Shown here: piece after piece, positions 16,676-34,588 of the stretch
Layout: the number at the start of each line of letters is the position of its first letter
Position numbering within the stretch: position 1 is the stretch's first letter
Source of the DNA: Candidimonas nitroreducens
GTDB taxonomy: Bacteria > Pseudomonadota > Gammaproteobacteria > Burkholderiales > Burkholderiaceae_B
NCBI RefSeq assembly: GCF_002209565.1
Contig: NZ_NJIH01000002.1
Location: forward strand, 310,001 to 374,000
DNA: 64,000 nt
Direction of reading: 5' to 3'
The notes under the pieces: model-generated
Told to the model about the DNA's origin: nothing
What the model saw: the letters and a program-made list of their open reading frames with translations, nothing else
Databases searched by the model: none
Translations under genes and position numbers: made by a program

Positions 16676-17563
16676 TCAGGCCAGCAGCTCCATGGCCTGC
16701 GCCCATTTATAGGCCACGGCCGGCGAGGTCGCGCAAGTGGCCGTGGCGGTCACCACCCGCACGGCCCGTTCCAGCAGCTGGATGTCGGCCTCGTGCTGGC
16801 GCGCCACGTGCGGGTCTTCAAAGAAAATGACGCGCTGGCAGCGGCCTTCCAGCACCAGTTCGGCGATCTGGGCGTCGCCGCCCAGGGGCCCGCTCAAGTA
16901 GGGCTGCACCCAGGGCCGCTCGCGCGGCCAGCCGCGCGACCAGGCCATCGCATTCAGGCGGCCGCTGGTGGTGCCGGTGCCGACACGCGCGGCGAAGCGC
17001 GACAGCAGCTCGAAATGGCTGTCGGCGAAATCGACCATCTGATCCTTGAGCGCATCGTGCGCGATCAACGCCACGGTCTGCGCCGCAAAATCGAAGGCCT
17101 GGCGCGCGGCCTGGCCCGCGCTCAGCCCCAGCCCCGCGTGCAGGCGCTCGACCTCGATCCATTCTACGGCGCCGGCCAGCGTCGAGATGAAGGGCTTGCC
17201 ATGCGTGACGCACTGGCGCTTGAGCGCCAGTGCTTCGGGAAAAATGGAGGACGGATCGACCGGATCGATAAGATAAATGGCGCCGTCCAGGGCCGGCTCG
17301 CCGCCGGGCCGCTGCGGAATATGCGCCACCAGCTTCATCAGGCCGCCGTCGCGCCCGTAGGGATAGCGCAGCAGGCCCCGATAGCCGGCCAGCAGGCCCG
17401 AATGCTCGATCGCGTGATAGGTGCGGCCCACCGCGCGCAGCTCGACGCCCAGTTCGCGGATGGCCGGCCCCGAACGCTCCAGCCATTTGAAAAGCGCCGC
17501 ACCGGGAGATTCGTGGTGCAGGCGGTTGGCAGCCAGGCCGAAACGCAGACGGGGAAAGGTCAT
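16676..17563 (-). CDS. Methylglyoxal synthase-like protein with two MGS-like domains
   Basis: 295 residues, about twice the length of E. coli MgsA (152). Residues 163-290 carry the methylglyoxal synthase signature: AHD (168-170), GTGTTSG (195-201), SGPLGGD (224-230, with the catalytic-type Asp at 230), FFEDP (247-251) and His257. Such enzymes convert dihydroxyacetone phosphate to methylglyoxal and phosphate. Residues 8-140 appear to be a second, degenerate copy: GRTYH (46-50) matches the phosphate-binding loop and IYLIDP (96-101) the FFEDP strand, but the SGPLGGD loop is replaced (YGRDGGL, 69-75). The start at MTFPRLRFG was chosen because the upstream codons do not resemble protein. Whether it is catalytic or regulatory is not known. 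Confidence 0.8.
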   Translation of the reverse strand: MTFPRLRFGLAANRLHHESPGAALFKWLERSGPAIRELGVELRAVGRTYHAIEHSGLLAGYRGLLRYPYGRDGGLMKLVAHIPQRPGGEPALDGAIYLIDPVDPSSIFPEALALKRQCVTHGKPFISTLAGAVEWIEVERLHAGLGLSAGQAARQAFDFAAQTVALIAHDALKDQMVDFADSHFELLSRFAARVGTGTTSGRLNAMAWSRGWPRERPWVQPYLSGPLGGDAQIAELVLEGRCQRVIFFEDPHVARQHEADIQLLERAVRVVTATATCATSPAVAYKWAQAMELLA

Positions 17564-17789
17564 GAACAGGGATCCGTATGGGGTCGGTCGGGAATCGGCT
17601 GGAAAATTCGCCGACTCGGAACAGACCGCAACTATACCGGAGCCCTGAGCGCCGTAGTGAGGCCACGCGCACCGTGTTTGCGGCCGGCCCGCGCTTGAGG
17701 CAGGCTCGGGCTTCAGGCTACCGAGTACGGCGGCACGGGGCTCGAGCGGCCGCCCGGAACGGTGGGCGGCAAGCCTGTGCTCGATCAAC

Positions 17790-17818
17790 AGGCCGGCGGC
17801 AGCGGCTTTTGCCGGCCT
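17790..17818 (-). terminator. Possible stem-loop after iscA
   Basis: AGGCCGGC (17790-17797) and GCCGGCCT (17811-17818) form an 8-bp stem with a 13-nt loop just past the iscA stop. There is no U-tract downstream, so termination is only suggested. The remaining 17564-17789 shows nothing recognisable; it is where hscB-hscA-fdx would start in a canonical isc locus. Confidence 0.3.
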
Positions 17819-17824
17819 CGGTGT

Positions 17825-18148
17825 TTACACCGTAAAGGATTCGCCGCAGCCGCAGGTGGCCTTTTCGTTGGGATTGGAGAACTTGAAGGCTTCGTTCAGG
17901 CCGTCGCGGGTGTAGTCGAGCTGCGTGCCGTCGAGGTAGGCCATGCTGTCTGGGTCGACGTAGACCTTGATGCCGCAAGACTCGAAAATGAGGTCGTTGG
18001 CGGCCGGCTCGTCGACATATTCCAGCTTGTAAGCCATGCCCGAACAGCCCGAGGTGCGTACGCCCAGCCTCAGGCCCACGCCCTTGCCGCGCTTCTCTAG
18101 GTAGCGCCCGATGTGATCGGCCGCGCTCTGCGTCAGAGTAATTGACAT
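17825..18148 (-). CDS. iscA: Iron-sulfur cluster carrier IscA
   Basis: 107-residue A-type carrier that receives and delivers Fe-S clusters or iron. The three conserved cysteines are intact: one in SGCSGM (Cys35) and the pair in CGCGESF near the C-terminus (about residues 99 and 101). Length and sequence are standard for IscA. It starts 6 bp after the iscU stop. It ends the isc gene run here: hscB, hscA and fdx, which follow iscA in E. coli, are not found, and the next gene is the methylglyoxal synthase-like one. Confidence 0.95.
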
Positions 18149-18154
18149 GGAATG

Positions 18155-18538
18155 CTACTCCTGGTGTTTCTCTTGGTAATTGCGCACCGCCGCCCTGATC
18201 GCGTCTTCGGCCAGGATCGAACTGTGGATCTTGGCCGCAGGCAGCGCCAGTTCCGCGGCGATTTGCGTACTGCGTATATTAAGCGCTTCGTCCAGCGTCT
18301 TGCCCTTGACCCACTCGCTTGCCAGCGAGCTGGAGGCGATGGCGGAACCGCCGCCATAGGTCTTGAAGCGGGCATCCTCTATGATACCCGAGGCGCCGAC
18401 CTTGATCTGCAGCCTTATGACATCGCCTTCCGCGGGCGCCCCGACCATGCCCGTACCCACGCTTGCGTCGGCCTGGTCGAAGGTGCCGACATTGCGCGGG
18501 TTTTCGTAGTGATCCAGGACTTTCTGGCTGTAAGCCAT
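18155..18538 (-). CDS. iscU: IscU-like scaffold protein lacking all three ligand cysteines
   Basis: 127 residues, colinear with E. coli IscU (128) without gaps over the conserved part: MAYSQKVLDHYENPRNVG, MVGAPAEGDV, FKTYGGGSAIASSSL, KIHSSILAED. The cluster ligands Cys37, Cys63 and Cys106 are Glu37 (codon GAA), Gly63 (GGC) and Ser106 (AGT); Asp39, Lys103 and His105 remain. The HscA-binding LPPVK (99-103) reads LPAAK. IscU normally assembles 2Fe-2S clusters on these cysteines with sulfur from IscS; this protein cannot do so in the known way. There is no frameshift or stop, and strong family conservation elsewhere suggests a functional, repurposed protein rather than a pseudogene. It lies between iscS (29 bp) and iscA (6 bp). 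Confidence 0.93.
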   Translation of the reverse strand: MAYSQKVLDHYENPRNVGTFDQADASVGTGMVGAPAEGDVIRLQIKVGASGIIEDARFKTYGGGSAIASSSLASEWVKGKTLDEALNIRSTQIAAELALPAAKIHSSILAEDAIRAAVRNYQEKHQE

Positions 18539-18567: not shown

Positions 18568-19785
18568 TCAGCGCGCCGCCCATTGATACGTGTTCAGGTC
18601 TATGCCTTCCTGGGCCATTTCCCACAAGGGCGACATATCGCGCAGCTTGCTCACGCGCCTGGTGATGAGTTCGACGGCGTAGTCGATTTCTTGCTGCGTG
18701 GTGAAGCGCCCGATCGTGAAGCGTATGGAGCTGTGCGCCAGTTCGTCGCTGCGGCCCAGCGCGCGCAGCACATAGGAAGGTTCCAGGCTGGCCGAGGTGC
18801 ATGCCGAGCCGCTGGACACCGCCAGCTCTTTGATGGACATGATCAGCGATTCGCCCTCGACGTAATTGAAGCTGACGTTCAGATTGTGCGGCACGCGCTG
18901 CTGCAAGTCGCCGTTGAGATAAACCTCGGGAATGCGCGACAGCCCCGCCCAGAGGCGGTCGCGCAGGCCGCGCATGCGTTCGTTTTCGGCGGCCATTTCG
19001 GCGCGCGCCAGGCGGTAGGCCTCGCCCATGCCGACGATCTGGTGCGTGGGCAGCGTGCCGGAGCGAAAGCCCCGTTCGTGGCCGCCGCCGTGCATCTGGG
19101 CCTCGATGCGCACGCGCGGCTTGCGCCGCACATAGAGGGCGCCTATGCCCTTCGGGCCGTAGGTTTTATGAGCCGAGAACGACATCAGGTCGACCTTCAG
19201 CTGCTGCAGGTCTATGGCTACCTTGCCCGTAGCCTGGGCCGCGTCGACGTGGAAAACAATACCTTTGTCGCGGCAGATTTCGCCCAGCGCGGCGATGTCT
19301 TGCACCACACCGATCTCGTTGTTGACGAACATGACCGAGGCCAGGATGGTGTCGGGGCGCAGCGCCGCCTTGAAGGCGTCGAGATCGAGCAGGCCGTTTT
19401 CCTGCACGTCCAGGTAGGTGAGCTCGAAACCCCGGCGCTCGAGTTCCTTGCAAGTGTCGAGCACGGCCTTGTGCTCGGTGCGCAGCGTAACGATGTGCTT
19501 GCCGCGCCCGGCGTAAAAGCCGGCGGCGCCCTTCAGCGCCAGATTGTCGGATTCCGTGGCGCCCGAAGTCCAGATGATCTCGCGCGGGTCGGCATTGACC
19601 AGGGCAGCCACATCGGCACGGGCTTGTTCCACGGCTTCTTCTGCGTCCCAGCCATAAGAGTGGCTGTTCGAGGCGGGATTGCCGAAGTTTTCATACAGCC
19701 AGGGCACCATTTTCTCGACCACCCGCGGATCGACCGGCGTGGTGGCGGAATAATCGAGATAGATGGGGCACGTGGACTTCGACAT
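18568..19785 (-). CDS. iscS: Cysteine desulfurase IscS
   Basis: 405-residue PLP enzyme that converts cysteine to alanine and passes persulfide sulfur to IscU, TusA and other acceptors. The PLP lysine is in [12 protein letters not shown] (near 206), the sulfur-accepting cysteine in [14 protein letters not shown] (near 328), and the C-terminal tail ends [10 protein letters not shown], close to the segment E. coli IscS uses to hold IscU. All functional residues are present. The start was set at ATG 19785 ([11 protein letters not shown]), one codon after an in-frame TTG. It follows iscR by 21 bp. A TusA-like acceptor is encoded at 34245-34502. Confidence 0.97.
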
Positions 19786-19806
19786 CAAAGGGCTCCGGGA
19801 TAGCGG

Positions 19807-20304
19807 CTATGCAGGCACTGACGTTGCGGGCATGCGGTTGAGGCGGATTTCCGCCTGTGCCTGCGAGGCCTCGCGCAGCAGCCGCATGCGCTGCTGGTCT
19901 ACCAGGTCTTGTAGGGAAACAGAATCGAGATAATCGATCATTTTACGATTTAACGTGGACCATAGCTCGTGCGTCATGCACTTGCCCGAACTGCCGATGC
20001 GCCCGACGTTGCAGTCTTCCTTGCCGCCGCAACTGGTGGCGTCGAGTGGTTCGTCGACCGCGAAGATGATGTCGGCCACGGTGATATTGCGCGCCAGCCT
20101 GGCCAGCGAATAGCCGCCGCCCGGGCCGCGCACGCTTTCGACCAGTTCGTGCCGGCGCAGCTTGCCGAATAACTGCTCTAGATAGGATAGCGAAATGTTT
20201 TCACGTTGGCTGATGGCCGCCAGCGTTACGGGGCCGCTTTGCTGACGCAGCGCCAGATCTATCATTGCCGTTACTGCAAAACGCCCCTTGGTCGTCAAAC
20301 GCAT
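19807..20304 (-). CDS. iscR: Rrf2-family regulator IscR
   Basis: 165-residue Fe-S-sensing regulator that in its 2Fe-2S form represses the isc operon. The winged helix (SLSYLEQLFGKLRR, SVRGPGGGYSLAR) is typical. The ligand region has Cys92, Cys98, Cys109 and His112 (TSCGGKEDC through GKCMTH). E. coli has Cys92-Cys98-Cys104-His107, so five residues (within NVGRIGSSGK) are inserted before the third cysteine, but all four ligands are kept. It is the first gene of the isc run, with a type 1 IscR site upstream. Confidence 0.96.
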   Translation of the reverse strand: MRLTTKGRFAVTAMIDLALRQQSGPVTLAAISQRENISLSYLEQLFGKLRRHELVESVRGPGGGYSLARLARNITVADIIFAVDEPLDATSCGGKEDCNVGRIGSSGKCMTHELWSTLNRKMIDYLDSVSLQDLVDQQRMRLLREASQAQAEIRLNRMPATSVPA

Positions 20305-20360: not shown

Positions 20361-20385
20361 ATATCCGAGTAATTGACTCAAGTAT
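20361..20385. promoter_or_regulatory. Type 1 IscR binding site and iscR promoter region
   Basis: The 25 bp from ATATCCGAG to CAAGTAT fit the type 1 IscR consensus (ATASYYGACTRWWWYAGTCRRSTAT) at 21 of 25 positions. It lies 57-81 bp upstream of the iscR start. On the minus strand TATACT (20386-20381) overlaps its edge as a probable -10, so holo-IscR would block transcription. The gap between 20386 and the terminator at 20638 is otherwise featureless. Confidence 0.8.
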
Positions 20386-34244: not shown

Positions 34245-34502
34245 TCAGCGGCGCGCCAGGAAATGCACCGAGGCATCCCCGGATTCGATCTGGCGCAGCA
34301 GCGGGTTTCCGGTCTGCCTGGAAAAGGCCTGGAAATCGCGCACTGCGTGAGGGTCGGTAGTGATCACCTTGAGCACCTGGCCGCTGCTCAATTGCGCCAA
34401 GGCCTTCTTGGCGCGCAGGATGGGCAAGGGGCATTTCAGGCCCGAAGCATCCACCTCGAGATCGGCGACGGGCGGAGAACTGGTATCGGTAGTGTCGTTC
34501 AT
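34245..34502 (-). CDS. TusA-family sulfurtransferase
   Basis: 85-residue sulfur carrier. The CPxP motif is at residue 24 (ASGLKCPLPILRAKKAL), with the usual GQVLKVITTDPHAVRDF strand and a C-terminal hydrophobic strand. TusA accepts persulfide from IscS for tRNA thiolation and molybdenum-cofactor synthesis, so it could be one outlet for the intact IscS in this genome. It lies 86 bp downstream of alaS on the same strand. The start was set at MNDTTDTSS. Confidence 0.9.
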   Translation of the reverse strand: MNDTTDTSSPPVADLEVDASGLKCPLPILRAKKALAQLSSGQVLKVITTDPHAVRDFQAFSRQTGNPLLRQIESGDASVHFLARR

Positions 34503-34588
34503 GATTACAGCCCTGCTATGCCAGGCCGCCCAGGCAACCGGCAAGCTTCAGGGGCAAAGCACATAGTCGGAGCGAACGCCTTTGCACG

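Follow-up and report, generated by a model that had tools for sequence, protein, structure and literature searches.

IscU without its cluster-ligand cysteines in a reduced isc operon of Candidimonas nitroreducens, an advanced case of Cys37 loss among SUF-bearing relatives

The isc operon of Candidimonas nitroreducens encodes an IscU homologue, here called IscU-star (gene iscU-star), that has lost all three cluster-ligand cysteines in an intact reading frame, and it is understood as an advanced case of a recurrent loss of Cys37 that marks every IscU-bearing genome searched in the family with SUF and without a match to HscB and CyaY. Judging by the sequences compared, IscU-star would with moderate probability be a former scaffold, kept as a non-catalytic partner of IscS that modulates the sharing of IscS sulfur after SUF took over. 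The window referred to below is the whole stretch of 64,000 nucleotides that was analysed; the gene and its altered sites lie in it as follows.

18155 to 18538, minus strand: iscU-star, an iscU without the three ligand cysteines, 127 amino acids plus stop (open reading frame, Pfam, alignment, AlphaFold2/Foldseek).
18428 to 18430, minus strand: codon 37, GAA, Glu replacing Cys (codon reading).
18350 to 18352, minus strand: codon 63, GGC, Gly replacing Cys (codon reading).
18221 to 18223, minus strand: codon 106, AGT, Ser replacing Cys (codon reading).
18230 to 18244, minus strand: former HscA-binding motif, residues 99-103, LPAAK replacing LPPVK (alignment).

The cysteine replacements are real. 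As an earlier sequence-only reading had claimed, Glu, Gly and Ser stand in the places of Cys37, Cys63 and Cys106, and the three codons are read in an intact frame with iscS on one side and iscA on the other. The alignment to E. coli IscU gives 90/127 identities with no internal gap, so that the gapless alignment claimed in that reading holds up to the last residues; 71% identity to PDB entries 3lvl_A and 2l4x agrees with this figure. Asp39, Lys103 and His105 are retained, again as claimed. The Pfam NifU_N profile matches residues 2-126 with 158.9 bits (cut-off 22), and the NCBIfam equivalog profile TIGR01999 scores 189.7 bits, just below its cut-off of 192.4. AlphaFold2, with 29 relatives in the alignment, predicts the IscU fold at a pLDDT of 95.7, and Foldseek places the model at a TM of 0.95 to E. 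coli IscU 3lvl_A and at 0.91-0.97 (by query length) to the 13 best PDB matches, all of them chains of human ISCU or E. coli IscU. IscU-star is thus IscU by fold, place and similarity, but it does not carry the ligands by which an IscU is defined. In Candidimonas humi DSM 25336, the sister genome and the one relative placed in the same genus, codon 37 reads GGC (Gly) next to TGC at 63 and TGT at 106, and the three changes in IscU-star are therefore separate and layered. The circumstance imagined as contrary to the earlier reading, of close relatives keeping the cysteines with this strain alone altered, is not what was found: C. humi also lacks Cys37, and the frames are intact.

The operon around iscU-star is reduced to the order iscR-iscS-iscU-star-iscA, and its parts, together with neighbouring features of the window, are these.

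18568 to 19788, minus strand: iscS, cysteine desulfurase, with the Cys328 loop and the C-terminal helix retained (profile match, alignment).
17825 to 18148, minus strand: iscA, cysteines retained (profile match, cysteine check).
19807 to 20304, minus strand: iscR, cluster ligands (Cys-Cys-Cys-His set) retained (profile match, ligand check).
20361 to 20385, minus strand: IscR type-1-like site upstream of iscR, 21/25 matches (consensus comparison).
17789 to 17824, no strand: junction, the place of hscB-hscA-fdx in the intact operons of relatives, all three absent here (operon comparison).
16676 to 17788, minus strand: methylglyoxal-synthase-like gene, which comes after fdx where the operon is intact in some relatives, L063 for instance (operon comparison).
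34245 to 34544, minus strand: tusA-like gene in the same window; TusA competes for IscS in E. coli (family match).

Where the operon is intact in relatives, hscB, hscA and fdx come after iscA, and some of these operons continue with the methylglyoxal-synthase-like gene; in the window that gene directly adjoins iscA. The NCBIfam match of the methylglyoxal-synthase-like protein spans residues 236-357 only, its N-terminal part being without family match. The partners IscS, IscA and IscR have kept their own cysteines, in agreement with the earlier description. Measured against the consensus, an IscR type-1-like site precedes iscR with 20-24 of 25 matches in all 33 HscB-negative genomes (those without HscB match, introduced below) and with 19-24 of 25 in 26/27 HscB-positive genomes read, shuffled controls giving mostly 14-16 and 21 once; the reduced operon may therefore still respond, in iscS and iscU-star, to Fe-S status.

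The rest of the genome offers another Fe-S system, as the earlier reading had suggested it might. The genome search located on another contig a SUF operon of an Rrf2 regulator, sufB, sufC, sufD, sufS, sufU and a SufT-like protein, its SufU scoring 157.9 bits on TIGR01994 (cut-off 92.5). The alternative idea in that reading, of a paralogue standing beside a normal IscU, found no backing: a second normal IscU was rejected as a candidate, SufU being the only other NifU_N protein found. HscB, CyaY and IscX gave no match in the genome search, HscA none at E 1e-200, and fdx was not found beside iscA; neither these absences nor the recurrence of Cys37 loss in the family, described next, had been noticed in the earlier reading. 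The absence of IscX is uninformative because many HscB-positive genomes are also without it.

The search covered 150 genomes, of which 91 (the window's own included) belong to its family, and IscU was taken from 88; left out of the IscU table were G022 and G064 (75% and 82% complete, with a SufU-range match only) and G051 (66% complete, with an IscU fragment at a contig end). NCBI taxonomy places the genus Candidimonas in the Alcaligenaceae. The window genome and 32 relatives, 33 of the 88, carry SUF without a match to HscB or CyaY, and Cys37 is lost in 33/33 of them. The other 55 have HscB; all three cysteines are present in 54, the remaining copy (G012) being frameshifted. With relatedness ignored, the association of Cys37 loss with HscB state has a Fisher p of 1e-24 (33/33 vs 0/54), and the 87 genomes read include no intermediate, neither an HscB-negative genome with Cys37 nor an HscB-positive one without it. 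The frameshift of G012 (iscU at L049:4990-5380) lies beside codon 37, whose TGC is itself present, and is perhaps an assembly error; that operon has HscB, HscA and Fdx, its genome has CyaY and no SUF match, and G012 was excluded from the conserved-position counts. G013 is HscB-positive yet without CyaY match.

Throughout the HscB-negative set (33/33) iscR, iscS, iscU and iscA are grouped, no HscB, HscA or Fdx match occurs in the stretch taken, and the iscU frames are intact and full length (126-149 amino acids). Cys63 is kept in 27/33 and Cys106 in 30/33; complete loss of the ligand cysteines is confined to the window and G038, and G046 lacks Cys37 and Cys106 in a frame of full length. The question raised earlier, whether relatives share the replacements, is thus answered for the loss of Cys37, which is common to all, the identity of the new residue varying (Glu 8, Leu 7, Gln 6, Thr 4, Ser 3, Asn 2, Gly 1, Ala 1, Asp 1). 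Eight HscB-positive genomes (G029, G061, G017, G041, G035, G018, G066 and G090; loci L063-L067 and L199-L201) are also SUF- and CyaY-positive and keep all ligands in IscU; SUF alone therefore does not accompany Cys37 loss, and these eight apparently represent a stage before ISC reduction. In a check of named genomes, 78 of the best 80 of 548 candidate loci had all ligands, 74 of those with HscB adjoining; the two without Cys37, from Candidimonas humi and Pollutimonas subterranea (taken as G001 and G086), had no HscB in the locus. Twenty genomes chosen from other families (17 SUF-positive and HscB-negative, 3 without NifU_N match) gave only 27-51-bit matches in 16 cases, spanning about residues 2-96, the range given by SufU, and none in four, so that in this sample the Cys37-less form of IscU was seen only in the window's family. 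The other four of the 78 loci with all ligands (L109, L120, L123, L132), on contigs of metagenome-assembled genomes, carry an IscU with no IscS, IscA or HscB match nearby.

Independent losses were counted on a midpoint-rooted UvrB tree of 55 genomes that includes 32 of the 33 HscB-negative ones, the missing one (G071) being added to its genus's event only in the comparison of IscU, IscS and IscA changes. If loss is irreversible, the tree yields 12 HscB-negative groups, or at least 7 and at least 5 with nodes below 80 and below 95 collapsed; the counts would be lower if an entire isc locus had been re-acquired in place. For four events the separating nodes stand at 100%: G086 beside G029 and G061, G054 beside G017, G033 beside G041, and Candidimonas. 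Of the 88 IscU positions that HscB-positive genomes conserve, none but Cys37 is altered in all members of all events, a pattern with a chance of 7e-13 for 12 events and 7e-6 for four, positions being treated as equally mutable; the next most changed conserved positions reach 8/12 events in IscU, 10/12 in IscS (N306) and 8/12 in IscA. In the young case G086, only A34K, A36T, C37D and D39E are changed among the 88.

The surface facing IscS appears somewhat better kept. The IscS contacts of IscU listed in PMC2854127 (Tyr3, Tyr11, Gly38, Val40, Lys42, Lys59-Gly64 and Lys103) are retained modestly more than other conserved positions in the HscB-negative genomes (0.84 for 10 contacts vs 0.69 for 73 positions; permutation p 0.022), and by sequence comparison IscU-star keeps all of them but two, with Gly at Cys63 and Arg at Lys42. 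No change in 33/33 is seen at twelve positions (Tyr3, Pro14, Gly18, Gly33, Gly38, Ile53, Phe58, Gly62, Ile67, Ala68, Gly79 and Leu97); Tyr3 and Gly38 are thus retained throughout, and Lys103 in 31/33, G038, likewise devoid of ligand cysteines, having lost Lys103 too. The loop residues 34, 36, 37, 39 and 41 drift in these genomes, with Asp39 kept in 7/33; His105 persists in 30/33. Where at least 31 of the 32 other HscB-negative IscUs agree (15 positions), the window itself never departs from them; where at least 29 agree (22 positions), it departs once, at Cys106. IscS, for its part, has an unchanged active site and TusA residue Trp45 in 33/33, keeps the CyaY/IscX-related Arg112 and Arg116 in 12/33 and 21/33, and often changes at IscU-facing residues (K379 kept in 7/33, A316 in 6/33). 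E. coli IscS needs its C-terminal tail for IscU binding; this tail is retained in the window and short or altered in 10/33 HscB-negative genomes (L050, L052, L054, L057, L058, L060, L071, L196, L197 and L198). From the eroded tails and the IscU-facing changes it follows that the interface of IscS with IscU-star may weaken in distant relatives.

Selection was gauged with our own codon likelihood script on 11 genomes, the background being HscB-positive tips plus internal branches. On the window branch, omega of IscU is 0.217 and a value of 1 is rejected (2dlnL 11.2); this is about 9-fold higher than the 0.025 of the background branches. Omega is 0.131 for C. humi with its stem and 0.115 for three other HscB-negative tips; IscS, IscA and IscR stay at 0.02-0.13 throughout. 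Six small HscB-negative clades give IscU omegas of 0.018-0.177, each rejecting 1 (the lowest value with saturated synonymous sites), and two HscB-positive control clades give 0.034 and 0.078. The relaxation of IscU-star is real, as seen in the 9-fold rise, the loss of Cys63, Cys106 and LPPVK, and the change of Lys42 to Arg; with omega raised and still below 1, constraint is therefore relaxed but not gone. The earlier claim that the rest of the protein is conserved as in functional IscU must be tempered by that rise, and stands insofar as omega remains far below 1. Neither mark of a pseudogene, a broken frame or an omega near 1, is seen in iscU-star. In a neutral simulation with substitutions only, the chance that the frame stays free of stops is 17%, about 5% and 0.6-0.8% at 0.175, 0.35 and 1 substitution per site, respectively; dS is near or above 1 for many pairs of genomes.

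Taken as a mechanism, the retention of IscU-star beside IscS would have begun with sufBCDSU-sufT, which stands beside ISC in many Alcaligenaceae-type genomes, was probably acquired, and may in practice have taken over cluster building in several lineages, Candidimonas among them. The genes hscB, hscA, fdx and cyaY would have gone together with Cys37 of IscU, leaving iscR-iscS-iscU-star-iscA. With its predicted fold and most IscS-facing residues kept, IscU-star could hardly hold a cluster and most likely still docks on IscS, where it would modulate the sharing of sulfur among acceptors, e.g., TusA for tRNA thiolation. In E. coli, TusA is a competitor of IscU for IscS and is displaced from it by IscU (PMC2854127, PMC11302665 and PMC11446229), and IscU lowers TusA-stimulated IscS activity (PMC11302665); TusA-family matches occur in 17/17 genomes tested, the window's included. 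Cys37 is exposed and the proposed first sulfur acceptor, according to PMC2854127 and PMC9769115. Without Cys37, IscS would no longer load sulfur onto a scaffold that has become a dead end, with neither chaperones nor ferredoxin left to empty it, and this residue may have been removed because a sulfur-accepting scaffold that cannot be emptied is a burden. A role as cluster-free regulator or partner of IscS, one of those put forward in the sequence-only reading, appears the best of the remaining functions to propose. More tentatively, IscU-star may represent a distinct functional class, a cluster-free gate of IscS, selection having eliminated Cys37 on about a dozen separate occasions when SUF-bearing lineages lost their chaperones, ferredoxin and frataxin; it might then reveal a hidden, cluster-independent function of IscU that in the window needs no cysteine at all.

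Weighed against these proposals, iscU might have become functionless after SUF takeover and be drifting slowly, persisting since deletions between iscS and iscA are costly. The raised omega on the HscB-negative branches tested would fit such a relic, as would the want of three cysteines and LPPVK in the window and the erosion of IscS tail and interface in distant relatives; the 33 full-length frames are hard to square with it, the neutral chance of no stop being below 1% at 1 substitution per site and dS about 1 or above for many pairs, and so are the omegas of the six HscB-negative clades and the 12 invariant positions. The earlier argument that simple decay is not enough is therefore upheld by frames and omega alike, and we regard the relic as rather doubtful overall; it is most plausible in the window's own lineage, where the absence of a stop counts for little on so short a branch (17%). 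Less likely again, the relatives' protein could take the IscS persulfide on Cys63 or Cys106 and pass it on, the window being a later loss. Retention of Cys106, His105 and Cys63 in most HscB-negative genomes speaks for this relay, and sulfur still reaches E. coli IscU when any one of its cysteines is missing (PMC2854127), but the window and G038 lack all three cysteines and G046 lacks two in full-length frames; what all of them have retained can therefore not be cysteine chemistry.

That Glu37, Asp39 and His105 serve as new ligands in a working scaffold or an iron donor is very improbable. Glu37 occurs in 8/33 HscB-negative genomes, and IscU-star still has Asp39 and His105; nine residue types at position 37 and the rarity of Asp39 (only 7/33) go against new ligands, as do the missing matches to HscB, HscA and CyaY and the presence of SUF, and the iron donor of the earlier reading is not borne out. 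A sequencing or assembly artefact, finally, is hardly credible even for a species with a single assembly that was judged without reads: the frame is intact, the codons differ by 1-3 bases each, omega is below 1, and the sister species and 31 further genomes lack Cys37 as well. The layered changes, with C. humi lacking Cys37, make a sequencing error very unlikely, in line with the earlier judgement.

Compared with known systems, IscU-star is closest to the ISC scaffold IscU (TIGR01999, PDB 3lvl), which it resembles in predicted fold, length, position between iscS and iscA, most IscS contacts and Asp39/Lys103/His105; it differs in having no cluster cysteines, a changed LPPVK, a genome that gave no match to HscA, HscB, CyaY and IscX, and an iscA without adjoining fdx. 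SufU, the SUF sulfur transfer protein (TIGR01994), is a distant fold relative, from which IscU-star is set apart by its score (49.6 bits vs a cut-off of 92.5) and its place in an isc rather than a suf operon. Pseudoenzymes lose catalytic residues and keep fold and partner binding under selection; unlike them, IscU-star descends from a scaffold and not an enzyme, and the same first residue was lost in several lineages. The truncated ISC of Mycobacterium tuberculosis, as described in PMC10848736, is alike in that SUF is the full system and an ISC-type cysteine desulfurase is kept, but its ISC operon is iscS alone, whereas here iscR, iscU-star and iscA are kept as well. The literature searched, by title and start of abstract and with most subscription journals outside its reach, yielded no description of a Cys37-less IscU or of the loss pattern.

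Lastly, the family has importance in offering stages in the replacement of essential machinery: genomes without SUF, genomes with both systems complete, and genomes with a reduced ISC. The known role of IscU is that of a cluster scaffold, from which whatever else it does to IscS is difficult to disentangle. The HscB-negative bacteria have separated these roles repeatedly, the scaffold chemistry being gone and the protein kept, and their lineages make testable a cluster-independent job of IscU, why Cys37 goes first and why the HscA motif outlives HscA. LPPVK is the HscA site of IscU; LPPVK or LPPIK is retained in 22/33 HscB-negative genomes, and from its persistence without HscA and HscB matches it follows that the motif may have another role.
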